From Rhodospirillaceae bacterium (GTDB lineage: Bacteria > Pseudomonadota > Alphaproteobacteria > CACIAM-22H2): a DNA stretch of 57,203 nt. The notes under the pieces are model-generated. The model did not search any database. It was given only the letters and a program-made list of their open reading frames with translations, and had not been told where the DNA came from. The DNA lies in assembly GCA_022843945.1 (NCBI GenBank), contig JALHMR010000032.1, positions 1 through 57,203 of the forward strand, read 5' to 3'. Each line of letters starts with the position of its first letter. Positions within the stretch are counted from its first letter, which is position 1. Shown piece after piece: positions 5,773 through 35,109 of the stretch. A program made the translations under genes and the position numbers.

Positions 5773-6426
5773 CTAGACATCGACCTGCTCCGCGATTGCC
5801 AGGGCGTCGTCTACCTCTATGCCCAGATACCGGACCGTACTCTCAAGTTTTGAGTGGCCCAGAAGGATCTGAACGGCTCGGACATTTCCGGTCCGCCGGT
5901 AGATCAGCGCGGGCTTCGTCCTTCTCAGAGAATGTGTGCCATACGCAGAAGCATCCAGGCCAATCGAGCTGATCCAGCGGGAAACCAACCGAGCATATTG
6001 CCGGGTGGTGATGGGCTGGTCCGGACGACCGCGGCTGGGAAACAGCGGCTCATTTTGCCGGCTGCCCACGTGGCGGATCCAGAACGTCACGGCATCCCTG
6101 GTCTGCTCTGTGATTTCGAACTGAACCGGACGGCCCGTCTCGCGTTGCAGGACGACGGCGCGAGACTGCACCTTGCCACTCAATGAGACGTCACCTACGC
6201 GCAAGGCAACAAGATCGCAACCACGCAACTTGCTGTCGATCGCCAGATTGAAGAGCGCCAAGTCCCTTGCACGCCCAGCAATCTGCAGGCGGACCCGGAT
6301 GGACCAGACCTCACGCAGCTTAAGAGGTGGCTTTTGCCGATGATCTTTCCCCGGTTCCAAGGCGGGTTCTTTGCAGAACGCGAACGCTGGCTGCGCATGG
6401 CGGACCTCCAGGTTAAGAGGTCCCAT
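5773..6426 (-). CDS. Small tyrosine recombinase / phage-integrase family protein
   Basis: 217 aa, essentially only a catalytic domain. The catalytic set is visible: R68 in 'DSKLRGCDL', H165 and R168 in 'GTHSLRRTK', H191 in 'LLGHSKLE' and Y200 in 'STVRYLG'. The usual beta-hairpin lysine position reads 'QRETGRP'. The short N-terminus lacks a full core-binding domain. Closely similar short integrases are common in Bradyrhizobium-like genomes, from memory of the family. The ATG at 6426 is chosen as the only reasonable start; the repeat at 6447-6473 lies just upstream and another abuts the stop codon. It is next to a broken grpE, so this looks like a small remnant of a mobile region, but no att site or direct repeat was found. 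Confidence 0.85.
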   Translation of the reverse strand: MGPLNLEVRHAQPAFAFCKEPALEPGKDHRQKPPLKLREVWSIRVRLQIAGRARDLALFNLAIDSKLRGCDLVALRVGDVSLSGKVQSRAVVLQRETGRPVQFEITEQTRDAVTFWIRHVGSRQNEPLFPSRGRPDQPITTRQYARLVSRWISSIGLDASAYGTHSLRRTKPALIYRRTGNVRAVQILLGHSKLESTVRYLGIEVDDALAIAEQVDV

Positions 6427-8837: not shown

Positions 8838-9365
8838 CTACATCGCCTGCTCCTTCCAGGCATCGGCGACGGGAGGGCCCTGTTGGCCGGTCGGCTGGAG
8901 CTTCCCCGGGTCTTTCGGTATGACCATGGTCAGAGTCCCGTCCGCGTCGTGCTGCATGATGAGAATACGGGACTCCTGCCAAGTGGCAATGACCTCGGCG
9001 GGGATTCCGTAGAGGTCGCTGAGATCTGCTGCGCTCACCGGTTCGCCGATGCGATGCCGATCATGGCCGCGGAAACGGATCTGGTTGTAGAGCGCCCAGG
9101 CGATCAGGGCGGCGCCATTGGCCACGATAACGATGCCATAATTTTCCATCGTGTCGAGGAAGCGGCTGATTGTCGGCAGTTCCGGTCGTTCCGCTCCGGC
9201 AAACGCCCACTGCAGCGAGTCCTCCGCGAGGTAATACAGATCAATGAGCGCTTCGCGAATGAAATATAGATAGAGGAGCCACATGAGCAGCGACAGCACC
9301 CAGTCGAGGCGGCGCGCCCAGGGCGGCCGCTTGCTCGCCTTGTCGATGATCAGCGACGAACTGAT
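8838..9365 (-). CDS. pgaD: PgaD, poly-GlcNAc synthase accessory subunit
   Basis: About 175 aa. It begins '(I)SSSLIIDKASKRPPWAR', typical of PgaD N-termini, followed by two membrane segments ('LDWVLSLLMWLLYLYF' and 'GIVIVANGAALIAWALYN') and the 'NQIRFRG' motif, then a C-terminal cytoplasmic extension longer than in E. coli (137 aa). In E. coli PgaD forms the inner-membrane synthase with PgaC and contributes to c-di-GMP control. It overlaps the end of pgaC. The frame has no ATG, GTG or TTG near the expected start; ATC at 9365 is 7 bases after GGGGAG and is taken as the start. The open frame to 9731 is antisense-like inside pgaC and rejected. Last gene of the operon. Confidence 0.82.
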   Translation of the reverse strand: MSSSLIIDKASKRPPWARRLDWVLSLLMWLLYLYFIREALIDLYYLAEDSLQWAFAGAERPELPTISRFLDTMENYGIVIVANGAALIAWALYNQIRFRGHDRHRIGEPVSAADLSDLYGIPAEVIATWQESRILIMQHDADGTLTMVIPKDPGKLQPTGQQGPPVADAWKEQAM

Positions 9366-10663
9366 GACGTCACTCCCCGGTCCGGGCTGATCCAGACTGC
9401 GCGCTTGCCGCGCAAGCGCAGCAGCGCTTTCGGAAAGCCGGCCAGCGACGTGGCCAGGGTCAGGATCCAGAAGAAGAACGGGTACCAGATGACCCAAAAG
9501 ATCAATCGGTAAAGCTTCGGCTCGTAGCGCGATTCGATGAACAGCGCGACCGCGAACTGGAGCAGGCAGGTCGTCGCCAGGAGCAGGCCCCAGAAGGCGG
9601 GTGGCTGGATGCTTTGAACGTTCATGCCTGCCGGCATCGTTATGAAATTGCCGACCATCCAGAGGATGAAGGTCATGATGAGCGCACCCGCCCAGGCCAG
9701 GCTCAGGCAGTATTCGAGCAGCACGCCCCACATGCGGCGTCGATTCCAGGCGAACATGTGGGGTATCTGCTTGAGGAAGACCTCAGCCCCCCCTTGCGCC
9801 CAGCGCAGCCGCTGTTTCCAAAGGCCCGCGAAGGTTTCCGGCATCAGAATCCAGCACAACGCGTCAGGCTCGTATTGGATGCTCCAGTGATCAGCCTGCA
9901 GCATCCAACTGATGTCGATGTCCTCGGTAATCATGTCGAGGCTCCAGTACCCGCAGTGATGCAGGGCCGAACGCCGGAAGCCGGCAATCACGCCGGACAC
10001 GGTGTTGATCGTGCCGTAGATACGCTGTGCTCGCTTGATCAGGCCGATGATCGACGAGAACTCGCCAACCTGGACCTTGCCGAGCAGAGTGGAGCGCGTG
10101 CGGATGCGAGGATTGCCGGTTACCGCTCCGACCCGTGGCGTGTTGATAAACAGGCGAACGATATAGGCCGTGGCGTTGGGATCGAGGACCGCGTCACCAT
10201 CAATACAGACGAGATATTCTCCGCGTGCCACCAAGGCTCCCATGCGCAAGGCCATGGCCTTGCCCTGGTTCTTGGCGAAATGGACGACGCGCAGCGCCGG
10301 ATAGGCAAGCGTCAACCGGTCGAGGACCGCACCCGTCGTATCGCTGGAGCCGTCGTCGATCGCAATGACCTCGAAATTGGGATAGTTCTGCCCGATGGCC
10401 GCCGCGATGGTCTCTGCGGCGTTGACCGTCTCGTTGAAGCAGGGGATGAGAATCGAAACCAGAGGCGGGTTGTCGATGACGGGCGGATCGAGCGAGCGCA
10501 CCCCATGCCGCTCCCAATGGAAGTAGTAATAGACCCCGCCGACCATCCACAGGAACGACATGAAAAGTGGATAGAGAAAGACGAACTCGAGAAGAATCCC
10601 GCCGGCGCTGACGATAACGATCAGCGCGAGGATCACCAGCGGTCCGAGGAGAGCGCCTTTCAT
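9350..10663 (-). CDS. pgaC: PgaC, poly-beta-1,6-N-acetylglucosamine synthase (GT2)
   Basis: 437 aa, start ATG 10663 overlapping the pgaB stop (ATGA). It polymerises UDP-GlcNAc at the inner membrane. Two N-terminal membrane segments precede the family-2 glycosyltransferase core. Its motifs are 'IDDGSSDTT', the DxD motif in 'CIDGDAVLDP', 'ITEDIDIS' and the processivity motif 'QRLRWAQGG'. Further membrane segments follow (LAWAGALIMTFILWMVG; FWVIWYPFFFWILTLA). Length matches E. coli PgaC (441). It overlaps pgaD by about 16 bases, so translation of the two is probably coupled. Confidence 0.95.
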   Translation of the reverse strand: MKGALLGPLVILALIVIVSAGGILLEFVFLYPLFMSFLWMVGGVYYYFHWERHGVRSLDPPVIDNPPLVSILIPCFNETVNAAETIAAAIGQNYPNFEVIAIDDGSSDTTGAVLDRLTLAYPALRVVHFAKNQGKAMALRMGALVARGEYLVCIDGDAVLDPNATAYIVRLFINTPRVGAVTGNPRIRTRSTLLGKVQVGEFSSIIGLIKRAQRIYGTINTVSGVIAGFRRSALHHCGYWSLDMITEDIDISWMLQADHWSIQYEPDALCWILMPETFAGLWKQRLRWAQGGAEVFLKQIPHMFAWNRRRMWGVLLEYCLSLAWAGALIMTFILWMVGNFITMPAGMNVQSIQPPAFWGLLLATTCLLQFAVALFIESRYEPKLYRLIFWVIWYPFFFWILTLATSLAGFPKALLRLRGKRAVWISPDRGVTSSVRR

Positions 10664-12675
10664 CGGAGAAACGGATAGGCTTGGAGCGAGAAATCCCGGT
10701 GCAGCCGGCGCTCGTCGGGGTGGCCGGTGACGAAGTCGTCCGGATAATAACCGAAATTCAGCGCGCCAAGTCGGGAGAGAAGCCGCATCTGTCGCGCCAA
10801 TGTTTCGGTAGGGACCTTGATGTGTTTGTCTCTCGGTCCCGTTCCCCAGTCGACCGCCTGCAGCTCGAAGATCGTCCGCTTGAGCCCGTGCGGCCGGGCG
10901 GCGACGATCGCCACCAGGCGGCGCAGCCAGGCCTCGGCCTCCTTCGCCGGGACCTTCTCCATCGAGGGCATCGCCATGATGGCGGTGTAGTCGTACGTCT
11001 CGAGGAAGCGGTCGAAGTCCTGCGCGAACCATTCCTCGCTGCGGGGATCGAGCACCGGAAGGGCGTAGATATTGCGCGCCGTCGCCAGCGGTGTGCGGTA
11101 CTGCCGGGTCCGGGCCGCGAGCTCCGTGGTGAAATCGAGCAGCGTGTCCGTCTTGAGGCGCGTCCAGCGCCGCATCATTTCCGGGTCGGTGCGGATAGCA
11201 CCAATCGAACCCGGCAACCCGGCCCGGGCATAGGCAGCCAGAGCCGCAGGGCTCGCGTCCTCGAAATCGGAGAGCAAAGCGTCATCGTGGAACAGCAACC
11301 CTTCGAAGGGTGTGTAGCGTGCGAGATCCTCGTACAGCATGAGGATTTTCCGGCGGGCCTCGGGATCGAAGGGCGAGAGGCGGCGATAGGTTCTGGCATC
11401 GGGCTCGGCGGAGCCGGTCTGCGCGTTCCAGGCGAGGACCGCGACCGCGGCGTCGCCGAAGTCGAAAGCCAGGACGGGCATCCAGGCGAAGACCTTGACG
11501 CGCGCACGGGTCCGCAACTGCCAGGACACCCGGTCGAACAGATCGGCCCGCATCGGCAGCAGGCGATTGGCAAAATACACCTCGCGCACCAGCCCATCCC
11601 CGGTGGGATCGGCAAACGCCTGCAGGAAGACGGTGCTGATCTGCATGTCATGGATGCGCTGGACCAGGCGGCCCACATTGCGCTCCTGCTGCGCCGGGTC
11701 AGGGTCGTAGACGTAATCGAGATCGACATGCACGACCCGTACCGGCGAAGCCTCGCCGAAGCTGCGCAGCGCGCTCACAAACTTACCGAGACCGGGATCC
11801 GGGCTGACCAGGTGACGGGGCACGGCGCTTAGGCGGTCGACCGTGGCCGCGCCATCGACGAGCGTGAACGTAATCGGCATGCCATTGGCAGCGGCTATGG
11901 AGATCGCCTTCTCACTGTGCTCCCCGTAGGGCCAGACCATGACCCGCGGGCGCTTGCCGGTCTGGCTCTCGATCTTCAAGGCCATTCGCGCGCTGTCGGC
12001 GTGAAGCCGCCGACGCTCTTCAGCGTCGCTTTCGGAACCGCCGGTCAGCGGATCGAAGCGTCGCGTCGTCACGTCAGGCTGGGAATTACCCTGGGGATTC
12101 GCGAGGGAGCCGTGATGAGAATCGTAGGAATGGGAGGCAATCTCCACCAAGCCGGAAGCGGCAATCTCCCGGACTTGGTCCCAGGTGAGGAACACATCGC
12201 GGCTTACGGTTTTGTCGCCGAACTGAACGGCCTCGAGTGGCGCGGGGGCGCCCCTCTTGTCGCTGGAATAGGGGACGGCTGTGTCAGGGCCGCCCTCCAT
12301 CCAGGCGCCGACCAATGCCAGCACGGCGGGAAAGCGGAAGGCCTGGAGTATCGGCAGAACGCGTGTGTAGAAGCTCGCATAGCCGTCATCGAACGTGAGC
12401 AACACCGCCCTGTCGGGCAGGGGCTTGCCGCCGTCGCGCGCGGCGAGCAGATCGTCGATCGTAACCGGTAAATAGCCGTTGCCTTGAAGCCAGCTGAGCT
12501 GAGCCACCAGTTTCTCGGTGGTGAGGCCAACGAACGACTGGTCTGGATTGCTGTCTTCGACATTGTGATAGGAGAGGGCGATAAAGCCGGACAGGGGCGT
12601 GTTTGCCGCCGAGGCGGCCATGGCCGTTATGGCGAGCGTCAGGGCGATAGCGAAGGCGAGGTAAAAACGGGTCAT
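10660..12675 (-). CDS. pgaB: PgaB, poly-GlcNAc N-deacetylase with C-terminal glycoside hydrolase domain
   Basis: 671 aa, the same size as E. coli PgaB. A signal peptide is visible (MTRFYLAFAIALTLAITAMA..ASAAN) without a lipobox, so it is probably soluble or membrane-associated rather than a lipoprotein as in E. coli. The NodB-type deacetylase domain (~30-280) has 'LTFDDGYASF' and the metal-binding 'SHSYDSHHGS'. The C-terminal domain (~310-660) begins 'VVHVDLDYVYDPDPAQQ', the hydrolase region that binds and cleaves deacetylated polymer. It partially de-N-acetylates PNAG in the periplasm before export through PgaA. It starts 2 bases after the pgaA stop codon and overlaps pgaC. Confidence 0.95.
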   Translation of the reverse strand: MTRFYLAFAIALTLAITAMAASAANTPLSGFIALSYHNVEDSNPDQSFVGLTTEKLVAQLSWLQGNGYLPVTIDDLLAARDGGKPLPDRAVLLTFDDGYASFYTRVLPILQAFRFPAVLALVGAWMEGGPDTAVPYSSDKRGAPAPLEAVQFGDKTVSRDVFLTWDQVREIAASGLVEIASHSYDSHHGSLANPQGNSQPDVTTRRFDPLTGGSESDAEERRRLHADSARMALKIESQTGKRPRVMVWPYGEHSEKAISIAAANGMPITFTLVDGAATVDRLSAVPRHLVSPDPGLGKFVSALRSFGEASPVRVVHVDLDYVYDPDPAQQERNVGRLVQRIHDMQISTVFLQAFADPTGDGLVREVYFANRLLPMRADLFDRVSWQLRTRARVKVFAWMPVLAFDFGDAAVAVLAWNAQTGSAEPDARTYRRLSPFDPEARRKILMLYEDLARYTPFEGLLFHDDALLSDFEDASPAALAAYARAGLPGSIGAIRTDPEMMRRWTRLKTDTLLDFTTELAARTRQYRTPLATARNIYALPVLDPRSEEWFAQDFDRFLETYDYTAIMAMPSMEKVPAKEAEAWLRRLVAIVAARPHGLKRTIFELQAVDWGTGPRDKHIKVPTETLARQMRLLSRLGALNFGYYPDDFVTGHPDERRLHRDFSLQAYPFLR

Positions 12676-12677
12676 CG

Positions 12678-15197
12678 CTAGAACCTCAGTCGCGTGTTGA
12701 AAAGCACCGCGACGGTGTTTTCGTAGTCGCCGTCATAGGGGCGGCGGCTGAAACGCACGCCCAGCCCGGCTTCAATCACATCGTTGGCGCGCACTCGGTG
12801 TTCGTAAAAAGCGCTGCCAAGACCGCCCAGGCCGAATCCCTGTTCCCAATAGACGCCAGGGGTGACGACAAGGTGGTGATCGTAGCTCAGTTCATAGCGG
12901 CGATAGAGTGCATGAGTGGTTGAGAAACCGTAGGTGGCGACCGCGTCTTGACGTGGATTGAAGTACGGCCGGTTAGCGTCGGCACTGTTGCGGGATGTGC
13001 CGAGGCCCAGGATGCCGTCGAGTGTCAGGCCCGGCCGCGTCGTCAAGCGCTCGGTGTACTGCCCGGCAGCACCGATGCGCAAATTGCCGTCCGAGAAATC
13101 CATCGCTTCGGCAGCGAGCCGAAACTCCCGCGATTCGCTTTTGCGATAACCGACAACGGTCGAGGCGGAGTTGGCCGTGATGCCATGGCGCAGCGCCCGC
13201 AACGGCGTGTCGCGCGAAAAGAGCTCGGCCGCCCCACCGAATTGCCAGTAATCGTTAACCGACCAGCTCCCCAGGAACCGCGCCCCGCCGCGCCCGCTAT
13301 CGATGTCGCTTCGCAGCGTGTCGCCTGAATCAGAGCCCAATGCGGTGAGTGTCCCTTCGAGGCTCGCGACGAGGTCAGGGCCGCGATACTCGGTGCCGAA
13401 AGCCGACCGCCGCGCCGTGATCGTGCCTTCACCGACCGACAGCTTCTGATGGGCGATATGTTCGGCGCCGAAGACGCGCCAGTTGTAAGCGAACGGCGAC
13501 GAGTAGAGCTGGGCGCCTAGAGCGAGGCCGCCACCGCCCTGGGCATTGGTCGCCGAGGCAAACGCCTGTTCCGCGTTCAGACGGAACTCGGCCATGTTAT
13601 GCACCTGCCAGAGCCGGTCGAGGCGTTGCACTTCCAGATTTTCAGGAAAGCGGCGCTTCAGATCCGCCAGCTGCGCTTCGGCCTCCCGATAATTGCGCAA
13701 CTGAAGGTTATTGCGCGCCTGGCCGACCTCCGTCGCCACGTTCCGGCGCTGAAGGGCACGGCTGATCTCGTATTCTTCGGCGGCAAGGCGCGGCCAGCCG
13801 CGCGCCGCGTAGATGGTGGCAAGTGCTGTCCTATGGCGGGTGTTGTTGGGGGCACTCTCGGCCATCGCCGCCAGGCGCCGGTGCGCCTCGGCAAGTTCAT
13901 CGCCGTAAAAGCGGGCGTTGGCGGCCGCCAGCTCGGCGAGGGCGCGATCCGGGTTTTCAAGCGGGTCGTTCAAGCCAGGGAGAGAGCGCCAGATGGGCTG
14001 GTCCGCCACCGCCGCATCGACTTGGCGGTAGGCCGCCTGCAGATCGTCGAGTTCGACATACGCATAAAATAGGCCGAGCCTTGTCTCTGGATTGTGCGGA
14101 TCGATTGCCAGGGCACGTAGATAAAGATCGCGCGCCGTCTCCGGCTGACGCAGATAGAGATGCGCATCGGCGGCGGCGATCAGGGCATGAGCAGGAAGAG
14201 CCACGCCCTGACGCTGAAGATCCTGGTACTCGGCAACGACATCCGTCATACGCACCCGGTCGCGCAGCGCGACCATGCGGTCGAACCGTGCCCGCATGGC
14301 ATCGCTCCGGGACTCCTCCCCCTCCCGCGACCACCGCGCGATCAGCGTGTCGAGCGCCGCGATTGCACGATCGCTGGCGGCGAAGCGCCGCTCCTCGCTG
14401 GGGGGCTCTAATACGCCCCAGCGCACCAAGGCGGCAGCCCCGTCGCGATCGATTCGACGCAACTCTGCGGCTGTCAGGAGCCCCGGGTGCTCGTCGGCCA
14501 GCCGGCGGGCAACCTGCGGTGCGCCCATGTCGTTGATTGCCAGGATGCGGTCGCGTCGGGCCTCGCGGTGGGCGGGATCGAGCTTCAGGGCCCGGTCGAT
14601 ATAGCGCAGGGCCTCGACCGGCTTCTTTTGCGCCGAGACGGCATAGCCGGCCGCCAGCAGAACCTCCAGCCGTTCGCCGCGCGCCCTTAAATCGGTGTCC
14701 GCCAGCGTAAGAGCAGGCGTGACCTGGCCCAGATCAGCGAGGCTGCGGATCGCGCCGGCGACAAGACGCGCATTCTCGGGAGAGCGGGACAGACCCTCGC
14801 GGTAGAGAGCGAGCGCATCGCCCGCCCTCCTTAGATGGCGATAGGCCAGGCCGGCCGCCTCAGTCACATAGTCGGGATGCGGGCCGGGGGCGAGCGTGAA
14901 GACATCGACCGCGTCGCTGTCGCGTGCTGCCCAGACTAGGACAACGACGAGATCACGCGCGATCTCGATATCGCCTGGATGTTCGCGACGAAGGCGCTCT
15001 AGAATCGCCAGTGCTGCTGTCGTATCGCCCTGGCGCGCCAGCCGCACAGCGCTCTCGTGCTCGGCAGCCCAGGGACGCGCAGCATTGGTTTCATCAGCAA
15101 GGGCGGTCGCGATCCCGTATGGCCAGCCTGTCACCGGCTGTATCGCCAGGACAGGGCTGGTGATCAGAAAAATCATGAGCGCGCGACGCAACACCAT
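12678..15197 (-). CDS. pgaA: PgaA, outer-membrane poly-GlcNAc export porin
   Basis: 839 aa (E. coli 807). An N-terminal signal segment (about 1-34) precedes a long TPR superhelix (about 45-510; repeats such as 'ALAILERLRREHPGDIE' and 'LYLRALAIDPHNPETRLG'). The C-terminal beta-barrel starts near 'AEFRLNAEQAFA' and ends in the terminal Phe of 'FNTRLRF', as expected for BAM substrates. The ATG at 15197 has no strong Shine-Dalgarno sequence and lies 15 bases after a small membrane ORF, suggesting translational coupling; 'MIFLITSPVLA' at residue 8 is an alternative start. It exports partly deacetylated PNAG. Confidence 0.93.
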   Translation of the reverse strand: MVLRRALMIFLITSPVLAIQPVTGWPYGIATALADETNAARPWAAEHESAVRLARQGDTTAALAILERLRREHPGDIEIARDLVVVLVWAARDSDAVDVFTLAPGPHPDYVTEAAGLAYRHLRRAGDALALYREGLSRSPENARLVAGAIRSLADLGQVTPALTLADTDLRARGERLEVLLAAGYAVSAQKKPVEALRYIDRALKLDPAHREARRDRILAINDMGAPQVARRLADEHPGLLTAAELRRIDRDGAAALVRWGVLEPPSEERRFAASDRAIAALDTLIARWSREGEESRSDAMRARFDRMVALRDRVRMTDVVAEYQDLQRQGVALPAHALIAAADAHLYLRQPETARDLYLRALAIDPHNPETRLGLFYAYVELDDLQAAYRQVDAAVADQPIWRSLPGLNDPLENPDRALAELAAANARFYGDELAEAHRRLAAMAESAPNNTRHRTALATIYAARGWPRLAAEEYEISRALQRRNVATEVGQARNNLQLRNYREAEAQLADLKRRFPENLEVQRLDRLWQVHNMAEFRLNAEQAFASATNAQGGGGLALGAQLYSSPFAYNWRVFGAEHIAHQKLSVGEGTITARRSAFGTEYRGPDLVASLEGTLTALGSDSGDTLRSDIDSGRGGARFLGSWSVNDYWQFGGAAELFSRDTPLRALRHGITANSASTVVGYRKSESREFRLAAEAMDFSDGNLRIGAAGQYTERLTTRPGLTLDGILGLGTSRNSADANRPYFNPRQDAVATYGFSTTHALYRRYELSYDHHLVVTPGVYWEQGFGLGGLGSAFYEHRVRANDVIEAGLGVRFSRRPYDGDYENTVAVLFNTRLRF

Positions 15198-26218: not shown

Positions 26219-27907
26219 TCAGGCGGCCCGGATCGTAGCGATGAAGGTGTCGACCTTCAGGCTCAGTGTCTCGGACTGCTTGGCGAGTTCGCCCGATGAG
26301 GCGAGGACCTGCGATGCCGCCGCGCCGGTCTCGGTTGCCGCTTTCGTGACGCCGCCGATATTCGCATTGACCTCCGACGTGCCGGCCGAGGCCTGCTGCA
26401 CGTTGCGGGCGATCTCCTGTGTCGCCGCACCCTGCTGTTCGACCGCCGCAGCGATGGTCGTGGCGATCTCGTTAATTCGGCTGACGGTCTGGGTGATGGC
26501 GCCGATGGCATCCACCGACTGACCTGTGGCGGCCTGCATTTCGCTGATCTTGGCGCTGATCTCCTCCGTTGCCTTGGCCGTCTGGTTGGCCAGGCTTTTG
26601 ACCTCGGAGGCCACGACCGCGAAGCCCTTGCCGGCCTCACCGGCGCGCGCCGCCTCGATCGTGGCGTTGAGCGCCAGCAGATTGGTCTGGCTGGCGATGT
26701 CATTGATCAGCTTGACCACGTCACCGATGCGCTGGGCCGCCTCCGCCAGACCCTTGATCTGGGTGTTGGTAGTCTGCGCCTGTGTGGCGGCCTGGCCGGC
26801 AATCTGCGCCGACTCCGACACCTGACGGCCGATCTCGGCGATGGACGAGGACAGCTCCTCGGCGGCTGAGGCCACGGTCTGCACGTTAGTCGAAGCCTGC
26901 TCCGAAGCCGCGGCGACCGCCGTCGACTGCCGCGAGGTTTCCTCGGCGGTGGACGTCATCGACTTCGCCGTGGTCTGGAGCTCGGTCGAGGCCGACGACA
27001 CCGTCTGCACGATACCCTTGACGCTCGCCTCGAAGTCGTCGGCCATCTTGTTCATGGCCGCACGCTTCTCGGATTCGGCACGCGCCTCCACTTCCTTCTG
27101 CTCGGCCTGCAGGCGGCGGTTCTCCATGCCCGCTTCCTTGAACTTCTCCAGCGCCCCGGCCAGTTGGCCGACTTCGTCTTTCTGGCCCAGCGCCGGCACG
27201 ACAACGTCGAGGTTGCCACCGGCCACCTGTGTCATCGCCTGCGTCATGGCGCCCAGCGGACGCGAGACGGCGAGGCTCATGAGCAGCGCGCCCAGCGCCG
27301 CCAGGCCCACCATCAGGGCGCCGTTGACGATGATTGCGGTGGTGGTCATGCCCAGCGCCTCGCTCACCTCGGTGGCGCGGGTGGCCAGCAGGCTCCGCTC
27401 GATCCGCTCAATCTCGCCCAGCTTGTCGCGGAAGGAGTCGACGAAGCGCTTCCCCACACCGTCGCGCTCGATCTTTGCCGCGTCGTCGCGCGTCTCGGCC
27501 TTGGCCATCAGCTGGCGTACCTTGGCGCCGACCGCCTCCTCCCACCCCCGCGACAGGGATTCGAGCTCGCCCAGGCGGGCCTGCTGCGCCGGATTGTCGG
27601 AGGTAAGCTGGCGGACATGGGCCATTTTTTCGGCGAATAGTCTGTTGCCGGCCTCATAGGGGCCGAGGCTCGCGGTGTTGCCAGTGATGATGTAGCCGCG
27701 GATGCCGGTCTCGCGGTCGACCATGGCGCTCATCAGGTCGTCGAGGTCAGCCAGCACCTTGTAGGTGTGCTCTGACCAGTGGGTCGCCGACTGGATGTGG
27801 CTCTTCTGCTGGTAGATGATGGCGCCGGCCGCCAAGGACACGACGGCCATTAGGGCAAAGGCTAGCAACAGCTTTGTCGATACACGCAGGTTCATGAAAG
27901 CACGCAC
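26219..27907 (-). CDS. Methyl-accepting chemotaxis protein with CHASE3-type sensor domain
   Basis: 562 aa. TM1 is near residues 10-30 and a periplasmic four-helix CHASE3-like domain contains 'DLMSAMVDRETGIRGY'. TM2 is near 190-215, followed by HAMP ('SRPLGAMTQAMTQVAGGNLD'). The signalling domain has the hairpin tip 'LLALNATIEAARAGEAGKGF' preceded by 'IASQTN'. It should signal to a CheA/CheW array; no che genes are in the window. The start is GTG 27907, 9 bases after GAGGAG; ATG 27895 is an alternative. There is no C-terminal CheR-binding pentapeptide. Confidence 0.93.
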   Translation of the reverse strand: MRAFMNLRVSTKLLLAFALMAVVSLAAGAIIYQQKSHIQSATHWSEHTYKVLADLDDLMSAMVDRETGIRGYIITGNTASLGPYEAGNRLFAEKMAHVRQLTSDNPAQQARLGELESLSRGWEEAVGAKVRQLMAKAETRDDAAKIERDGVGKRFVDSFRDKLGEIERIERSLLATRATEVSEALGMTTTAIIVNGALMVGLAALGALLMSLAVSRPLGAMTQAMTQVAGGNLDVVVPALGQKDEVGQLAGALEKFKEAGMENRRLQAEQKEVEARAESEKRAAMNKMADDFEASVKGIVQTVSSASTELQTTAKSMTSTAEETSRQSTAVAAASEQASTNVQTVASAAEELSSSIAEIGRQVSESAQIAGQAATQAQTTNTQIKGLAEAAQRIGDVVKLINDIASQTNLLALNATIEAARAGEAGKGFAVVASEVKSLANQTAKATEEISAKISEMQAATGQSVDAIGAITQTVSRINEIATTIAAAVEQQGAATQEIARNVQQASAGTSEVNANIGGVTKAATETGAAASQVLASSGELAKQSETLSLKVDTFIATIRAA

Positions 27908-28321: not shown

Positions 28322-28525
28322 ATGTATCGGGTTAACATTGTCCGGAAGCAAGCCGCGACTTTTCGCGATCTAGCTCGGGAAGAGCGGGACTCGAAAATTC
28401 GAGATCGGCTTCAACGGCTCGCCGCTGAATGCGAGGCCCTGGCCCAAGAACTCGATCGCGGGCCACAGCAGGTTCTCCCTGACCATGCGCCTGGTAAATC
28501 TCATGCAGTAGGGGAACCTAACTGA
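28322..28525 (+). CDS. Small helical hypothetical protein
   Basis: 67 aa from ATG 28322, preceded by GGGGAAAAGG. The first 48 residues ('NIVRKQAATFRDLAREERD') have heptad-like spacing and predict one or two amphipathic helices rich in Arg/Glu. Short proteins of this sort (an 'AxxFRxLAxxxxDxxxRxRLxxLAxExExLA' pattern) are common in rhizobial-type genomes with no known role. Its last 25 bases overlap the end of the convergent paralogue C gene. The C-terminal tail after 'ELDRG' looks disordered. Confidence 0.6.
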   Translation: MYRVNIVRKQAATFRDLAREERDSKIRDRLQRLAAECEALAQELDRGPQQVLPDHAPGKSHAVGEPN

Positions 28526-29886
28526 GCCGCGAACAGGTCTTGGATCTTGTAGGCATACGCTCCACGCGGGCTATCGACGACAGAGGTAATTGTTTCGCCG
28601 TCCACGAAATCGAAGCCAGCGGCTATAGCGCCGGTGCTGAGACTGATGGTTCGCAGGCCGTGAACATAGGTCGCGAGGCCTACTTTTTTGGCGGCCGCAC
28701 AGAAACGCGCCATTTCAGCAATAATTCTAGCCTCGGACTGACCTGCCGTGGAGTTGTGCTCAATTCCTAACGCAGCGACGCCCGTCTCACTGGCTGGCCT
28801 GAACAAAGAGTGGCCTAAGGTGGTGCGAAGTAGAACGCCCCGGCTAAAGCCTTTAAGCGCCGTCGCCATCTCAAACAACCGATTATGCGGAATGCCCGCC
28901 GGAACACCAGTGAGCTCAAACACAATTCGCTTTGTGGCCCGAGAAGGTATCCCGCGCTGGCAACGCTCAATATAGGCCATGCGACGCTGGCTCACAGCGA
29001 GCGTCTCGAAATGCACCGGCAGGCAGAGTAGCAGGGGCTGACCTGCTGCGTCCAGGCGACGCAAATCACCAATAACGCGCTTCTGGACAAGCTGGTCGAG
29101 GCGAATTGCGACAGAAGGCTCGTTAAGACGAGGAATCCCGCCCTCGCCGACGAGCAGGCGGCCGGCCGGGCAGGTCTGAGCAGGGGCGCAGACGAATGTC
29201 GTGATGGCACTCCGCTTTACGTCCCACATAGGACGGTAGACCAGCTGCACCTGCGCCAGAGGGTCGCTGGTCTCTTCATCATCCCACCAAGACTCGTCAG
29301 TCTGCGCTTGGTCAGCCGGCGCGGCTCCACCACCAGCCTTTGTACCGTCCTCAGAAAATTGCGCCGCGAGCACTTCGACGCTCGGGATATCCTCGAAGGC
29401 AAATTTTCCCTGGATGTGCGAGACCATTGTCTTGACCTCGAGATCTTCCGGAGCGATCTCGTCACCCAACAAGCGCTTCGTGATTTCCTCAGCGATAAGA
29501 GCACATTTAAGCTTTGCCTGATCCTCGGTTAGACTAGCGAAGATAATGAGATAATGGAGTTCCTTGTAACGCGTATAGACGTCAGCAGGCATCAGTCGAC
29601 GCTCGATCGCCTTCCGCGTAATTTCATCAGCTCGCTCGGCGAGCCTGGGCCAGCGGTCTCCGAGCTTTTCTTTGATCTTCGAGAGACCTATAAAATTTAC
29701 TTTTCCCGCTAGCGGCTTCGCGTCCTTGCCAACAAGGCCGCGCAAATGCTCCTCGAACTCCTCTTGGAGCACCAGACGGACCACCGGCTTGGCCTCACTC
29801 GCCGTGCGGCTACCGGGTTTCACCTCGTCCTCCAACAACTGGGAAAGCTTTGCCCCGACCCGAGTGAATAGTGTGTTTTCAGCCAT
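28501..29886 (-). CDS. Degenerate GGDEF-EAL-like protein (paralogue C)
   Basis: 461 aa from ATG 29886, with AAGGGG upstream. Residues ~60-155 have a GGDEF-like layout with 'FIGLSKIKEKLGDRW', then 'TRYKELHYLIIF' (107-112 = YKELHY) in place of the GGDEF signature, and 'KCALIAEEITKRLLG'. An acidic linker follows, with 'DESWWDDEE'. Residues ~214-440 look like an EAL fold: 'VYRPMWDVKRSA' for the YQPIVD start, 'IVFELTGVPAG' for the EITE strand, 'YVHGLRT' for AEGVET and 'GFDFVDGE' for the DxxQG segment. No catalytic acid is retained. It is the third gene of a kinase-receiver-effector operon, 17 bases after the receiver. It is very similar to paralogue B. A pseudo-enzyme output protein is inferred. 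Confidence 0.88.
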   Translation of the reverse strand: MAENTLFTRVGAKLSQLLEDEVKPGSRTASEAKPVVRLVLQEEFEEHLRGLVGKDAKPLAGKVNFIGLSKIKEKLGDRWPRLAERADEITRKAIERRLMPADVYTRYKELHYLIIFASLTEDQAKLKCALIAEEITKRLLGDEIAPEDLEVKTMVSHIQGKFAFEDIPSVEVLAAQFSEDGTKAGGGAAPADQAQTDESWWDDEETSDPLAQVQLVYRPMWDVKRSAITTFVCAPAQTCPAGRLLVGEGGIPRLNEPSVAIRLDQLVQKRVIGDLRRLDAAGQPLLLCLPVHFETLAVSQRRMAYIERCQRGIPSRATKRIVFELTGVPAGIPHNRLFEMATALKGFSRGVLLRTTLGHSLFRPASETGVAALGIEHNSTAGQSEARIIAEMARFCAAAKKVGLATYVHGLRTISLSTGAIAAGFDFVDGETITSVVDSPRGAYAYKIQDLFAAQLGSPTA

Positions 29887-29903
29887 AGCATCCCCTTGCG
29901 AGC

Positions 29904-30287
29904 TCATGGCGTCGCTGCTGCCTTTGCCACAAGATCGTCGATCGCCTGCAGTATTTCCTTAGGCTCAAAGGGCTTCGCGAAAGCTCGATTAGCGCCGAAT
30001 TGTTCAGCCACCTGAAGGAAACTCATATTTCCTACACGGCCGCCGCCTGAAATCGCGATGATGGGCACCTTCGCCGCTAGACGGCGGATGTCCCGAATCG
30101 TCTCAATACCTTCTTTCTCGGGCATCAGTAGGTCGGTAATCACCAAGTCAGGCTTATACTCGGTGAAGGCAGCCAAGCCCTGCCTGCCGTCGTTGGCGAA
30201 ATGAAACTCATGGCGTCCCCGCGTAAGGATCGCCTTGAGCGTTTCCCTGACAATACGGTCGTCATCGATTACCAGAATCCGCGACAT
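29904..30287 (-). CDS. Stand-alone response-regulator receiver (module 2, operonic)
   Basis: 127-aa single receiver domain. D8-D9-D10 form the acidic pocket, D52 in 'VITDLLMPEKEG' is the phospho-acceptor, Ser in 'IAISGGG' is the switch residue and Lys in 'FAKPFEP' completes the site. No output domain. It lies 12 bases after the LOV histidine kinase and 17 bases before paralogue C, so the three form an operon and phosphotransfer from the kinase is the simplest reading. It is nearest in sequence to the module 1 receiver ('MPE(Q/K)EG(V/I)ETI'). Confidence 0.93.
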   Translation of the reverse strand: MSRILVIDDDRIVRETLKAILTRGRHEFHFANDGRQGLAAFTEYKPDLVITDLLMPEKEGIETIRDIRRLAAKVPIIAISGGGRVGNMSFLQVAEQFGANRAFAKPFEPKEILQAIDDLVAKAAATP

Positions 30288-30299
30288 TGCATACTCTCC

Positions 30300-33200
30300 T
30301 TATGCGGCAGCGATTTGCTGATCAGCGGTATGGGCGAAAGGCAGCAAGATGGTGAACGTGGTGCCGCGCCCCACTTCGCTCTCGGCAGTAATCACCCCAC
30401 GATGGCTTCGAATAATCCCGTGGACGACCGAGAGACCGAGCCCGGTCCCCTCACCGACGCCCTTGGTAGTAAAGAACGGCTCAAACACGCGCTGAAGCGT
30501 CCGCGGATCCATGCCACAACCATTGTCAGAGACGCGCACTCGCGCGAACCCTCCAGCAGCGATCCCGCCTGACAATCCGGCCGCAGCCACATGATCCGCT
30601 TGTACCGCGTCCACGGTGATTGCGATCTCTCCATGCTTTCGTCCGATTGCGTGAGCAGCATTGGTGCAGAGATTCATGATGACCTGTACCAGCTGATTGC
30701 CATCCGCCTGCACGGGTTCCATTTCGTCGGCAACATCGAGAGCAATCGCAACATTCGGGCTCAGGGTTGCCGCGAGAAGGCGATGAGCCTTTTTAACAAT
30801 CTCACCCAGCTGCACGGGTTCGGTCCGTGGCATTTCCTTTCGGCTAAATGCGAGAATCTCCGCGACCAAGTCGCGGGCACGATATGCAGCATCAAGAACC
30901 GTGTGCAGACTTTCGCGGTCTGAATGATCCTCCGGCAGCGCGTCTAGAGAAAGCCTGCTCAAGGCGATGATGGGAACGAGCGTATTGTTGATGTCGTGAG
31001 CTATTCCACCCGCCAGCGTTCCTATTGCCTCGATTTTCTGCGCCTGACGAAGCTGAGCCTCTAGTTCCGCCTTCTGTCCGTCCGCCAACTTCTGATGGGT
31101 AACGTCGAACAGCACGCCATCCCACACCAGGTCTCCAGTAGCGAGCTTCCGCGGCTGGATCTTCAACTGAAACCACTTCTTCTCCCCGTCCTTGTTGGTG
31201 CACGGGTATTCGATCTCGACCGGCAAGGCTTCGCAACGCGCCTTGCGCATCGCCGCGCGGAAGCGGGCCAAATGGGTCTCATCGATGTGTCGGCGTGCGA
31301 TGTCCCGATCATTTGCCCACTCTGTGGCGGTGTAACCGGTGATCTCCTCGCATCGCTCGCTAACATAGGTTGAGTACGCGCTTCCGTCCGGGCGAATTAT
31401 CCTTTGGAATATCACGCCAGGCAGATTGGAAGCCAAGCTGCGAAGCTTCTCTTCGCTCTCTCTGAGTTTTTCTTCAGCTTGGACGCTTTCCGTGACGTCA
31501 AAAACGACACCGTCCAACTGAATTTCGCCGTTGGACAGCTGACGCGGGCGAAACAGGGAGCGCCACCATCGGCGCGCACCCGATTTATTGACGACCTGGA
31601 ACTGAACCTCAGCCGGCTCCAGTGTCTTCAACGCGGCGTGCTTGGCCGAATCAAATGCGGCCCTAAACTCGGGAACTACGGAGTTCCTAGTGAGCAGCGG
31701 CTCAGCCAGCCATTCCTCGGCTGTGTAGCCGCTCAGTTCCAGGCAGCGATCGCTGACATAGGTATAGCGAAATGCACCACCCGGCTTTCCAACTCTCTGG
31801 TAGATGACGCCGGGAATGTTCGCAGCAATACCGCGAAGTCGTTCTTCGCTCTCGCGAAGACGTTCCTTGGCCAGAACCGATGCCGTGACATCGGTCTGCA
31901 CGCCAACAAAGTGCGTTACACGGCCGTCACCGTCGAGGACCGGAGATATATTGACGTCGAGATAAAGCGGCTGACCGTCCTTGCGGTAGTTGAGCAGGCT
32001 CGCTCCGAAAGGACGGGCTTCGACGACCGCCTGTCGGATGCCGGAAATATCTTTGCGATCGGTTCCGGGACCTTGCAGGAACCTGCAGTTGCGGCCCAGA
32101 ACCTCTTCAGCGCTATACCCGGTGAGGGCGGTGAACCCAGGGTTCGCGTATATGATCGGATTATCGGGCAACGTTGGGTCCGTAATAATAATTCCGCTGT
32201 GCGTGGTGGAAATAGCGGCGACGAGCAGTGCGTCTTTTCTGGCGAGCTCGCGAAGCTCTGCCTCGCGCCTGACGGCGTCAGATACGTCAATGTGAATACC
32301 TAGATAGCCTCCGTCCGCGAGGCGCGTCTCCTGGATTCGGATCCATCGGCCATCGCTGGCCTGTTCCTGGTGGACGCTACGGGCCGCACGATGGGCGGCC
32401 AACCTTTCCTCCAGCCAGGCGCTCTCGCGGCCCAGAGCTTCGGGAATCGAGCGACGAACGACCGCAGTATGGATAAGGGTCTCGAAACGCTGGCCGGCGG
32501 TTATGAGGTCGGCGGTTGAGGCATGAATTCGGGCATATGCTGAGTTCCACAACATGAGACGGTCATCAGCGTCAAAAAGCACAAAGCCATTATCGCTTTG
32601 CTCTAAGGCGTCGAACAGCAGTCGGCGCGCGCTCCTTGCCTCCTGCTCCGCCAAGACCTCGGCGGTCACCTCCTGGCCGGTGCCCCGATAACCCAGAAAG
32701 GTACCGTCCTCCGCAAAAAATGGCTTGCCGCTGAGACGACAATACGGCCTTTTCCCTTTCGTCAACTGAGGCTGATAGGTAAACCCTCGAAAAGGGCGGC
32801 GGTGTTTCAGGTCGTCGAGGTGCTCTTGCCACCTCTCGGGCGGATTCGAGTCGCCAAGCAGTTCCTCGCGCGTCTTACCGATCACGGCCGCCGGGTCAAC
32901 CCCGAGCAGCTCCCGGTACCGACCACCGAAGCGCGTTAATCGGAGGTCAGGTCCCATTTCCCAGTACCAGTCTGACGTGGCTTCAGCAAAGTGCCTTTGG
33001 CGTTCCTCGCTCTCGAGAAGTTCCTTCGCCATTCGCTCGCCCTTGTATGTCGCTGCCACAAGGAGGCTTGTAAGAAGTGATACGGCAACAACGAAGGCGA
33101 GCAGTCTCAGAACATCGCCGAGAAGCGCGTCCCGCAATTTACGCAGCACCTCATCTTCTGACAGGTGAAGGTTCAGAATAAATGGCACGCCCGCCACGGA

Positions 33201-33938
33201 ACGGCTAACGATGTGCTTTGCTACTGGCAGCGACATCGAAGGATTTGTTTCACTGGATGAGCCACCGGCGCGGGCCACAAAAGCGCCGTCCCGAGTGAGG
33301 ATGTCCAGAACAGCCGATGTATCGCCCAACAGGTTCCCATAAAAGCGCTCGTAGTAATCCGGACTTATTCCGGCTACCGCCACGCCAGCGAACTGACCGT
33401 CTGGGCTGGTTAGACGACGAGCCAAGGGAATGACAGGGAGGCCACTGATGCGGCTGATCCGTAGTGCTCCGATATAGGGCTGAGGTGTTTCAGGGCTGCG
33501 CAACGCGTCGAAGTAGTCGCTCTGCGAAAGGCTGACGTTGTCCAGTGGAAACCGCTGGCTATGAGCAATTGCTTGTCCAGTTGCATCGGTTATCGCAATT
33601 GCGCGCAGCTGTGGCCCGCGGCTCTCCACCCGACGCAGCTCTTCATGCAGTTGCTCCGCCGACAATCCGGCATTGCCGAGATTGCGGTCAACGACGTCTA
33701 TCGCCAGGGCCAATGTGCGATCGGCAGCCTCGACAGACTGGATCAAATGCTCATCTAAACTGTGCAAGAGCACGCGGCCCGCTGCCTCAGCCGCTACGAG
33801 CGCGTCATGGCGGGCTTCTGCACGCCGCAACATGGTATCTGCCATCGCCGTTGCGATGATCACGATTGCAAAACCGAGGATGCCCAGCCGCAGGCGTCGT
33901 AGTGGCTTCGTCGCGAGTCTCGGACTGGATATGCGCAT
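30300..33938 (-). CDS. Membrane histidine kinase with Cache-like domain, five PAS domains and a LOV photosensor
   Basis: 1212 aa. TM1 is at about 17-35, then an extracytoplasmic Cache-like domain (~50-265; 'SDYFDALRSPETPQPYIG') and TM2 at ~275-297. Five PAS-type domains follow: ~315-425, ~437-553, a LOV domain ~566-690, and two near-duplicates ~696-820 and ~828-948. The LOV domain has the complete flavin signature 'GRNCRFLQGPGTD' with adduct-forming C618, plus N617, Q622, N650, N663 and Q681. HisKA has 'GTLAGGIAHDINN' with H981, and the HATPase has 'LCTNAAHAIG', 'DNGCGMD' and 'GEGTGLGLSVV'. No receiver is fused; the receiver gene starts 12 bases downstream. It should be a blue-light sensor that also senses a periplasmic ligand. 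Confidence 0.95.
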   Translation of the reverse strand: MRISSPRLATKPLRRLRLGILGFAIVIIATAMADTMLRRAEARHDALVAAEAAGRVLLHSLDEHLIQSVEAADRTLALAIDVVDRNLGNAGLSAEQLHEELRRVESRGPQLRAIAITDATGQAIAHSQRFPLDNVSLSQSDYFDALRSPETPQPYIGALRISRISGLPVIPLARRLTSPDGQFAGVAVAGISPDYYERFYGNLLGDTSAVLDILTRDGAFVARAGGSSSETNPSMSLPVAKHIVSRSVAGVPFILNLHLSEDEVLRKLRDALLGDVLRLLAFVVAVSLLTSLLVAATYKGERMAKELLESEERQRHFAEATSDWYWEMGPDLRLTRFGGRYRELLGVDPAAVIGKTREELLGDSNPPERWQEHLDDLKHRRPFRGFTYQPQLTKGKRPYCRLSGKPFFAEDGTFLGYRGTGQEVTAEVLAEQEARSARRLLFDALEQSDNGFVLFDADDRLMLWNSAYARIHASTADLITAGQRFETLIHTAVVRRSIPEALGRESAWLEERLAAHRAARSVHQEQASDGRWIRIQETRLADGGYLGIHIDVSDAVRREAELRELARKDALLVAAISTTHSGIIITDPTLPDNPIIYANPGFTALTGYSAEEVLGRNCRFLQGPGTDRKDISGIRQAVVEARPFGASLLNYRKDGQPLYLDVNISPVLDGDGRVTHFVGVQTDVTASVLAKERLRESEERLRGIAANIPGVIYQRVGKPGGAFRYTYVSDRCLELSGYTAEEWLAEPLLTRNSVVPEFRAAFDSAKHAALKTLEPAEVQFQVVNKSGARRWWRSLFRPRQLSNGEIQLDGVVFDVTESVQAEEKLRESEEKLRSLASNLPGVIFQRIIRPDGSAYSTYVSERCEEITGYTATEWANDRDIARRHIDETHLARFRAAMRKARCEALPVEIEYPCTNKDGEKKWFQLKIQPRKLATGDLVWDGVLFDVTHQKLADGQKAELEAQLRQAQKIEAIGTLAGGIAHDINNTLVPIIALSRLSLDALPEDHSDRESLHTVLDAAYRARDLVAEILAFSRKEMPRTEPVQLGEIVKKAHRLLAATLSPNVAIALDVADEMEPVQADGNQLVQVIMNLCTNAAHAIGRKHGEIAITVDAVQADHVAAAGLSGGIAAGGFARVRVSDNGCGMDPRTLQRVFEPFFTTKGVGEGTGLGLSVVHGIIRSHRGVITAESEVGRGTTFTILLPFAHTADQQIAAA

Positions 33939-34221
33939 CTCTAAATCTCCGTCGGTCGCGGAGCAGGACGCGGTGGAAGCCCCGTAACCGGAGCTTAGAT
34001 TTATTCGATCGGGGTTAATATTCCGTCAGTACAGAGGCCAATTCAGCGGCGTTGCGCAATGCTATGCTGCTGTATTCGTCACTATTTTGCTACATGCAGC
34101 GCGTGCATTGCTCCCATGCATTGCATGATTTATTGGCGAGTGACTTAATTAATCGCTTATTAACAGTATTTGCTCTATACCAATGCAGCGGGGAACCTTT
34201 TCTCTCGCCGAGGAGAAAACG
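33939..34221. promoter_or_regulatory. Divergent AT-rich promoter region of module 2
   Basis: A 283-base spacer between the minus-strand LOV-kinase operon and the plus-strand receiver pair. It is AT-rich (for example GACTTAATTAATCGCTTATT near 34140) and contains TGCATTGC/ATGCATTGCATG-like self-complementary stretches at about 34104-34130. No promoter box can be assigned with confidence. Confidence 0.45.
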
Positions 34222-34611
34222 TTGGCCCGCATTCTGATCGCGGATGACGAGAAGATCGTCGTCCACACGATACGACGCATTTTAGAACTGGCCGGACACG
34301 TTGTCGTCGTTGCTCAGGACGGCTTGGATTGCGAGTTCATTCTGAGCAAGAGCACCCCTGATCTCGTTGTGATGGACCTCCTTATGCCCAGGCAGACGGG
34401 ATTCGAAACCGTTGAACGTCTACGAGCGCACGCCTCAAACATAAAGGTATTACTCATATCTGGAGGGGGATACAGCCTCAGTACAGAGCTCGGCGAGCTT
34501 GCCAGGCAATGCGGGGCAGATGCGGCACTCTCCAAGCCATTTGAGCCTCAGCAACTGCTTCATGCCATCAACGATCTGCTGCCCTCTCACCTTGCTCTGA
34601 GCACTGTCTGA
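34222..34611 (+). CDS. Stand-alone response-regulator receiver (extra copy 1)
   Basis: 129 aa from TTG 34222, 6 bases after AGGAG; the same TTG-ARIL start is used by the receiver at 3328. The upstream ATG at 34183 would add 13 residues before the domain. Acidic residues D8-D9, D52 in 'VVMDLLMPRQTG', 'LLISGGG' and 'LSKPFEP' are all present. No output domain. It is divergent from the LOV-kinase operon and followed by a second similar receiver, forming a pair with conserved 'CxADAALSKPFEP' ends. Confidence 0.92.
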   Translation: MARILIADDEKIVVHTIRRILELAGHVVVVAQDGLDCEFILSKSTPDLVVMDLLMPRQTGFETVERLRAHASNIKVLLISGGGYSLSTELGELARQCGADAALSKPFEPQQLLHAINDLLPSHLALSTV

Positions 34612-34719
34612 CACGCTGGACGGGATCGGCGTGTTCATCCGCCCAATCTAGGCCGCTGGTTTTCTTAGATGCGGTGGATCGCACGCAGGCTTAAGCGGAG
34701 CATACGCGGAGAACACGAC

Positions 34720-35109
34720 ATGGCGTGCCTTCTTGTTGTCGATGACGATCCGCTCGTCCTTCAGACCATTCGAAAAGTCCTCGAACTTTCCGGGCACGTG
34801 GTTTTTGGTGCACGGGATGGGGCCGGGTGCGAGGAGGTCCTCAAGATTGCTCGGCCGGATGTTCTCATTATAGATGTCTTCATGCCGGGGCAGAGTGGCC
34901 CCGCCACAGTCGAACGTCTCCGTCGAAAGGGAGTGGAGCTGAAGGTCCTGCTTGTCTCAGGCGGAGGGAACATTCCGAACTGGGACGTAAGCGATGTCGC
35001 GAAGCAATGTCGGGCCGATGCTGCACTGTCGAAGCCATTCGAGCCTCGCGTTCTTTTGGAAGCGGTAAAGGCGCTTTTGCCAGTCCCCATCATGCGCGAT
35101 AACGCCTAG
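34720..35109 (+). CDS. Stand-alone response-regulator receiver (extra copy 2)
   Basis: 129 aa from ATG 34720, preceded by CGGAGA; the upstream ATG at 34669 would add 17 basic residues unlike the family. D8-D10 are present, D52 in 'LIIDVFMPGQSG', 'LLVSGGG' and 'LSKPFEP'. It is clearly a duplicate of the receiver 108 bases upstream, with which it is probably co-transcribed. Together with the operonic receiver, the LOV kinase has three potential phospho-acceptor partners in the immediate neighbourhood. Confidence 0.92.
   Translation: MACLLVVDDDPLVLQTIRKVLELSGHVVFGARDGAGCEEVLKIARPDVLIIDVFMPGQSGPATVERLRRKGVELKVLLVSGGGNIPNWDVSDVAKQCRADAALSKPFEPRVLLEAVKALLPVPIMRDNA

Follow-up and report, generated by a model that had tools for sequence, protein, structure and literature searches.

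A membrane-anchored LOV histidine kinase with a leucine in its predicted flavin pocket: a candidate for combining blue light with a periplasmic signal

Background

Histidine kinases that carry a LOV photosensor are described as soluble and cytosolic in a review of photoreceptor histidine kinases (PMC6798134), and the single PAS/LOV kinases of the HWE type from Alphaproteobacteria, as presented in PMC10359499, form a set without a predicted transmembrane (TM) segment. A LOV motif together with an extracytoplasmic sensor is found in RprR of Ralstonia, where a periplasmic Cache domain is combined with three PAS-type domains, one of which has the LOV motif, and with a GGDEF-EAL output (PMC12802281). 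Here, we describe a histidine kinase encoded on contig JALHMR010000032.1 of assembly GCA_022843945.1, from a Rhodospirillaceae bacterium (CACIAM-22H2); "the window" refers to the whole stretch of 57,203 nt examined (contig positions 1 to 57,203). The kinase carries a predicted extracytoplasmic dCache domain and, as the third of five PAS-type modules, a LOV domain. On balance, we consider it probable that this is a membrane-anchored kinase with two inputs, that is, a periplasmic signal received by the dCache domain and blue light received by the LOV domain.

The kinase and its LOV domain

The modules of the kinase follow the order TM, dCache, TM, PAS1, PAS2, LOV, PAS4, PAS5, HisKA, and HATPase_c (Table 1); hydropathy puts the two TM helices at residues of about 15-37 and 271-299. 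An earlier note, made from the DNA letters alone, had placed a LOV photosensor at 31869-32243 in a kinase with five PAS modules. Translation confirms both the coordinates and the residue numbering exactly, and the PAS-family stretches found by Pfam, taken together with the positions of the D-x-T motifs, give a count of five. One should keep the strand in mind when inspecting this stretch, since the minus strand codes for the kinase and the plus strand there reads another open frame. LOV domain and kinase core lie within a single open reading frame (ORF), the core being recognized by Pfam as HisKA (E 3e-7; 30.8 bits, cut-off 26.9) and HATPase_c (E 1.5e-24).

The LOV signature GRNCRFLQGPGTD is present, with C618, N617, Q622, N650, N663, and Q681 numbered as before. 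The adduct cysteine of the GxNCRFLQ pattern is found at C618 in a fully retained GRNCRFLQ motif, and the LOV residues that have been kept comprise D587, N593, N617, C618, R619, Q622, R635, N650, Q681, and D683. When the domain was compared with the PDB using phmmer, 155 distinct sequences matched at E<=0.001; many of the best 60 of these bear the names blue-light histidine kinase, phototropin, aureochrome, or LOV, and the best match of all is 9vf7, a "histidine kinase" (E 7.3e-44, 121 residues aligned). Two NCBIfam models reached scores that indicate a related domain and not a member of the family, namely BluLightHisKinLov (145.9 bits against a cut-off of 450) and YtvA_fam (178.9 bits against a cut-off of 250).

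For a broader comparison, 132 LOV-like rows were aligned: the window LOV, 116 other Cys-bearing LOVs, and 15 Cys-less domains. These rows were picked by their similarity to the window LOV and are not a random sample; domain matches below 60 bits were excluded, and the 11 weakest places of one LOV match list were not taken in. A tree was built from 96 rows, consisting of 94 of the 132 (the window included) with PAS4 and PAS5 of the window kinase set as the outgroup; odd-numbered loci from L190 on were left out, save four Cys-less ones. The window LOV groups with the LOV rows and apart from its own PAS4 and PAS5. Judged by similarity, motif, and tree together, the domain at residues 566-690 is a true LOV domain by descent.

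An altered predicted flavin pocket

The flavin ring of LOV domains is usually, although not obligatorily, contacted by a pair of asparagines and a glutamine (N482, N492, and Q513 in AsLOV2). The window LOV keeps N650 and Q681 and lacks the asparagine at the N492 position. The earlier note had called the domain complete and had taken N663 for the second flavin contact. In alignments to 9vf7 and 6rhg, as well as in the 132-row alignment, the column of the second asparagine falls on residue 660, which is a leucine. The residue at column 663 varies, Asn being found in 3 of the 116 other Cys-bearing LOVs, and N663 was, therefore, rejected as the second contact. What remains of the "complete" domain is C618, N617, Q622, N650, and Q681, all in place, with the second flavin asparagine replaced by Leu660.

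At column 660, the 116 other Cys-bearing LOVs have 106 N, 3 A, 3 Q, 3 S, 1 V, and no L. Of the 15 Cys-less rows, 3 have leucine there, among them that of the paralogue on contig C20. The full set of N617, Q622, N650, N660, and Q681 is present in 79 of the 116, and the window copy is not such a complete one. Leu660 does not exclude LOV membership, because the second asparagine is absent from 10 of the 116 and the glutamine from 22. From our own reading of the alignment and the AsLOV2 sequence, we take column 660 to be that of AsLOV2 N492 and YtvA N104.

These two positions are given as equivalent in PMC10949197, and N482 and N492 are reported to coordinate the flavin in AsLOV2 (PMC9098866). Alanine is tolerated at this site: AsLOV2 N492A absorbs maximally at 448 nm, with recovery in 54 s vs 80 s for the wild type (PMC3903614), and changes of N104 in YtvA (N104A/D) are reported as not destabilizing, with only a moderate effect on photocycle dynamics (PMC4161478). 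A leucine variant at this site was not met in those parts of the AsLOV2 and YtvA mutant literature that were examined. Because the adduct cysteine, N617, Q622, N650, and Q681 are kept and alanine is tolerated at the site in both proteins, binding of flavin mononucleotide (FMN) and formation of a cysteinyl-flavin adduct at C618 is the likeliest reading. By analogy with these mutants, Leu660 suggests an altered photocycle more than none, so that we regard the LOV domain as probably functional with a pocket that is not complete.

The extracytoplasmic domain

The note had also predicted a Cache-like domain outside the cytoplasm, and this is supported. Pfam matches dCache_1 (PF02743) to residues 75-224 with E 4.1e-10, although at 40.0 bits this stays under the gathering cut-off of 45. 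An AlphaFold2 model of the extracytoplasmic part, made from a two-sequence alignment, has a mean predicted local distance difference test (pLDDT) score of 62, and Foldseek relates it to the dCache sensors 3lif (E 4.6e-9), KinD, and DctB, with template-modelling scores of about 0.4-0.6. The best of these, 3lif, is 33% identical over 161 columns. It is the long N-terminal helix and the membrane-distal half that resemble the three sensors; the proximal half is modelled at pLDDT <50. In the proximal half, the sibling kinases on contigs C17 and C19 score above the Pfam cut-off for dCache_1_like and that on C20 scores below; for the window kinase there is no match to this family at E<=0.1. On sequence and model together, an extracytoplasmic dCache input is probable.

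The structure 3lif is that of rpHK1S-Z16, whose dCache domain is stated in a review to interact with the autoinducer AI-2 (PMC8846402). By this analogy AI-2 is no more than a lead to a ligand of the window kinase, because the model cannot be relied on in its second half, where the window kinase also lacks residues that its siblings have.

Module spacing and a possible signal path

The aspartates of the D-x-T/S motifs that end the modules lie at 423, 551, 683, 814, and 945, and the phospho-acceptor histidine at 981. From LOV to PAS4 and from PAS4 to PAS5, the Asp-to-Asp distance is 131 residues in each case. The last D-x-T aspartate precedes the histidine by 36 residues in all four kinases (window, C17, C20, and C19), and this spacing is constant even though the last module differs (PAS5 in the window kinase, a LOV-like domain in C20). 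Such constancy would fit the gain or removal of modules without a shift of the helical register. PAS4 and PAS5, which had been described as near-duplicates, are 43% identical over 135 residues, and we prefer to call them a related tandem pair.

The following path is proposed. A signal bound by the periplasmic dCache domain would pass through TM2 into the regularly spaced PAS array. The third module, a LOV domain whose pocket Leu660 has altered, would bind FMN and form a thioadduct at C618 under blue light. The shift caused by light could then travel along helical linkers, by way of PAS4 and PAS5, to the helix of the dimerization and phosphotransfer domain that bears His981, and autophosphorylation would change in one direction or the other. 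The adjacent receiver (29904-30287) might take up the phosphate, with the degenerate GGDEF-EAL-like protein as a possible next recipient. The integration of light and a ligand by one kinase is a good hypothesis that the architecture supports (two TM helices, dCache, and PAS-PAS-LOV-PAS-PAS-kinase).

Paralogues and the history of the cysteine

Eight places in the genome match the LOV query at E<=0.001 (L001-L008), and the cysteine motif is found in the window copy only. The kinase on contig C17 (L023:7618-11769) has the order Cache-PAS1-PAS2-LOV-like, followed by three PAS modules and the kinase core. Its LOV-like domain reads S617, T618, R622, A660, and L681, so that N617, C618, Q622, and Q681 have all been lost. 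On contig C20 (L024:7049-10765), the kinase core is immediately preceded by a Cys-less LOV-derived domain, in which positions 617, 618, 622, 650, and 660 read S, A, Y, A, and L; this kinase also carries the PAS1-PAS2 pair twice. Between window and C17, identity is 57% in PAS1, 53% in PAS2, and 52% in the LOV domain, values to be expected if both arose by duplication of one ancestral LOV-bearing kinase, as we think they may have.

On the tree, the window LOV, C17, C20, and L178 (a Cys-less domain from another genome of the family) form one group with moderate support (81/90). When window and C17 were made sisters, the resulting topology gained 2.9 log-units over the free search, and the approximately unbiased test does not reject it (p 0.56). 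Over the 96 rows, the state of the cysteine changes at least 8 times and that of residue 660 changes 7 times. A simple account, with moderate support, would be an early loss of Asn660 in the group, followed by one or more losses of the cysteine among the other members. One should not equate Cys-less with blind, since a Cys-less LOV-like PAS domain of RmcA has been implicated in a light effect (PMC8846402); unlike a merely Cys-less domain, that of C17 also lacks most flavin contacts.

An orthologue of the kinase with an intact LOV cysteine was also sought in 385 genomes of the class: of the matches obtained there at E<=1e-28, none outside the own genome exceeds 51% identity. The 12 plasmid records that match the LOV domain at E<=1e-30 are all below 60% identity. 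A contig scan with the kinase alignment, which used one PAS1 and one Cache peptide and so finds relatives of those parts, gave 403 loci; by pattern, the LOV cysteine motif was not found in the best 80 of these. As a separate observation, a short contig of another genome (L164; G146:C55) carries three LOVs in three ORFs on the same strand, all of them Cys-bearing and with Gln in place of the second flavin asparagine.

Weighing the two-input reading

Several findings weigh against a kinase that senses both light and a ligand. Leu660 occurs in none of the 116 other Cys-bearing LOVs sampled; AsLOV2 N492Q was expressed too poorly to be characterized (PMC3903614), and AsLOV2 mutants of these asparagines are associated with poor yield and instability (PMC4161478). 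All three domains that group with the window LOV (C17, C20, and L178) are without the cysteine, and no orthologue with a LOV cysteine was found in 23 genomes of its order or family, its own included. On the periplasmic side, the second half of the dCache domain has no confident model (pLDDT <50 over model residues 163-225), and relative to the three siblings the window kinase is missing 23 residues after residue 236, a loss through which the membrane-proximal Cache half may have changed or lost its role. For RprR, the effect of blue light on transcription in vitro is reported as minor and largely RprR-independent, and phenotypes were seen in the dark (PMC12802281).

Decay of the LOV domain is the alternative that fares best, and we consider it unlikely. 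On this account, the second flavin asparagine was lost first and the cysteine is still kept, yet flavin or light signalling has gone and the Cache domain is the sole input of the kinase. All four members of the group have leucine or alanine at position 660, the three besides the window copy have lost the cysteine, and on the tree such changes of the cysteine are common (at least 8), all of which would suit a domain on its way out. The state of the other core contacts argues for a working domain: they are intact in the window copy, whereas C17 has lost N617, C618, Q622, and Q681 together and C20 has lost N617, C618, Q622, and N650. The tolerance of alanine at the site in AsLOV2 and YtvA (PMC3903614, PMC4161478) points the same way.

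Less probable still is a LOV domain that binds flavin mainly for something other than light, such as redox or oxygen sensing or a relay active in the dark, with the cysteine kept for another reason. LOV-flavin redox sensing is discussed in PMC6798134, and the Cache-PAS-LOV protein RprR acts in the dark (PMC12802281). The genome, in an assembly that is about 97% complete, has no match at E<=0.001 to reaction-centre, phytochrome, or BLUF families (cryptochromes were not searched, and the rhodopsin search was uninformative because no control genome matched), a result that we count in favour of this alternative. For the preferred reading, the same result means that the window LOV may be the main photosensor of the genome. 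Against a redox role stands the retention of the adduct cysteine and of the whole GRNCRFLQ motif, for which redox sensing has no need. A chance likeness of an ordinary PAS domain to LOV, which the abundance of PAS-type domains in the genome and its eight matches to the LOV query might bring to mind, is extremely improbable and was rejected in view of the E value of 7e-44 to LOV structures, the cysteine and the other core residues, and a place on the tree with the LOVs and apart from PAS4 and PAS5.

We therefore retain the membrane-anchored kinase with dCache and LOV inputs as the preferred reading. A more specific version is possible, and we offer it tentatively: one kinase would gate a periplasmic chemical signal and blue light through a leucine-bearing pocket, with a Cys-less paralogue as the matched, light-independent version of the same module array. 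The paralogues with Cys-less LOV-derived domains are, in any case, candidate natural controls.

Neighbouring genes and possible output partners

The receiver downstream of the kinase is 67, 62, and 59% identical to the receivers adjoining the sibling kinases on C17, C20, and C19, respectively, and is the probable cognate partner. The 468-aa protein that follows is more difficult to annotate. Its EAL match in Pfam (E 0.0053; 16.6 bits vs a cut-off of 31.3) is below the cut-off, and by sequence there is no PDB match at E<=1. In a four-member alignment of its family, EAL was matched in three members and GGDEF in one, all weakly (E<=1), and the best PDB match was FimX at a non-significant E of 0.26; an AlphaFold2 model made without an alignment had a mean pLDDT of 37 and was not used. 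Relatives occur in 25 of 289 genomes of the class, its own included. The order kinase, receiver, GGDEF-EAL-like protein recurs at the paralogue on C19, and a receiver-like and a GGDEF-EAL-like ORF follow a related Cys-less kinase in genome G002. We read this protein as degenerate GGDEF-EAL-like, with no claim of catalysis or of cyclic di-GMP binding, and as a possible output partner.

Table 1. Features of the LOV kinase locus, with positions in the window (aa, amino acids)
Feature	Position	Strand	Basis
Degenerate GGDEF-EAL-like protein, 468 aa; overlaps the receiver by 4 bases	28501..29907	-	weak matches
Single-domain response regulator, 12 bases downstream of the kinase	29904..30287	-	ORF, Pfam
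Histidine kinase, 1212 aa	30300..33938	-	ORF, Pfam, translation, hydropathy, motif positions
HATPase_c, residues 1079-1202	30333..30704	-	Pfam
HisKA, residues 973-1035, phospho-acceptor His981	30834..31022	-	Pfam; motif positions
PAS5, residues about 828-953	31080..31457	-	Pfam, motif positions
PAS4, residues about 697-822	31473..31850	-	Pfam, motif positions
LOV domain, residues 566-690 (125 aa)	31869..32243	-	translation, phmmer vs PDB, alignment
Codon of Leu660 (CTC), position of the second flavin-ring Asn	31959..31961	-	PDB alignments, 132-row alignment
Codon of adduct cysteine C618 (TGC)	32085..32087	-	translation
PAS2 (PAS_7), residues 445-559	32262..32606	-	Pfam
PAS1, residues about 310-430	32649..33011	-	motif positions; 57% identical to paralogue C17 PAS1
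Predicted TM helix 2, residues about 276-298	33045..33113	-	Kyte-Doolittle scan
Extracytoplasmic dCache-type domain, residues about 37-270	33129..33830	-	Pfam, AlphaFold2 + Foldseek, sibling alignment
Predicted TM helix 1, residues about 15-36	33831..33896	-	Kyte-Doolittle scan
Single-domain response regulator, divergent; link to kinase uncertain	34183..34611	+	ORF, Pfam
Second single-domain response regulator, divergent; link to kinase uncertain	34669..35109	+	ORF, Pfam

Scans with Rfam and for tRNAs gave no matches, and no short repeats were found in two intergenic stretches. Promoter-like sites equalled the shuffled mean (3 vs 3.0) and terminator-like sites exceeded it (11 vs 6.5); neither was used. 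Elsewhere in the window, a second degenerate GGDEF-EAL-like gene (1678-3036, minus strand; 56% identical) lies near a PAS histidine kinase (3765-5645), and a fragment of a third is found at the window edge (21-443, plus strand). A chemoreceptor with CHASE3, HAMP, and MCP signalling domains is encoded downstream of the kinase module on the same strand (26219-27907). About 15 kb from the LOV kinase, three consecutive genes (9350-15197) encode a PgaA barrel, a protein with GHL13 and polysaccharide deacetylase domains, and a family 2 glycosyltransferase, an order that we take to be the pgaA-pgaB-pgaC set for poly-N-acetylglucosamine. A phage-type integrase gene (5773-6426) is a possible trace of a mobile element.

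Comparison with known systems

As in the LOV-HK of Brucella, EL346, LovK of Caulobacter, and the engineered YF1, the LOV domain of the window kinase lies covalently upstream of a kinase core, and a receiver is the likely target. Unlike the known LOV kinases, the window kinase is predicted to cross the membrane twice and has a dCache domain and a HisKA core, with its LOV domain third among five PAS modules and bearing Leu660. The closest solved LOV, 9vf7, has Asn at the position of this leucine. The junction between PAS and kinase, with 36 residues from Asp to His, resembles that of the FixL/YF1 type, YF1 having the same spacing; here, the module at the junction is PAS5 and not the LOV domain.

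Membrane-anchored LOV kinases already exist in sequence data. Among 36 Cys-bearing LOVs in loci drawn from the class and from the order or family, eight (L148, L157, L163, L171, L175, L179, L182, and L185) lie in proteins whose hydropathy places TM helices around an extracytoplasmic part, and Pfam finds HATPase_c in all eight. The outer part was matched by CHASE in L175 and L179 and by dCache_1_like above the cut-off in L185 and below it in L182. In seven of the eight, the LOV is the last domain before the kinase according to Pfam, and L163 has room for one more PAS domain; the window kinase, unlike these relatives, has two PAS domains between LOV and kinase. The literature searched for LOV together with Cache/dCache, CHASE, or transmembrane kinases did not yield a characterized Cache-LOV histidine kinase in the portions of text available, which does not prove its absence in print.

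A dCache domain outside, a LOV domain inside, two PAS domains before the kinase, and a fixed spacing make this a system in which to study how light and ligand are combined and how far a LOV signal may reach through relay PAS domains. Leucine at the second flavin-asparagine position is, in addition, a natural substitution absent from the 116 other Cys-bearing LOVs sampled. The nearest published precedent is RprR, which like the window kinase combines Cache, PAS, and LOV and for which multi-input sensing has been proposed, with GGDEF and EAL and not a kinase as its output (PMC12802281). That precedent is cautionary and counts against assuming light as the main input. RprR left the role of its LOV domain open, and a kinase version with an easy readout, such as the one described here, would help.
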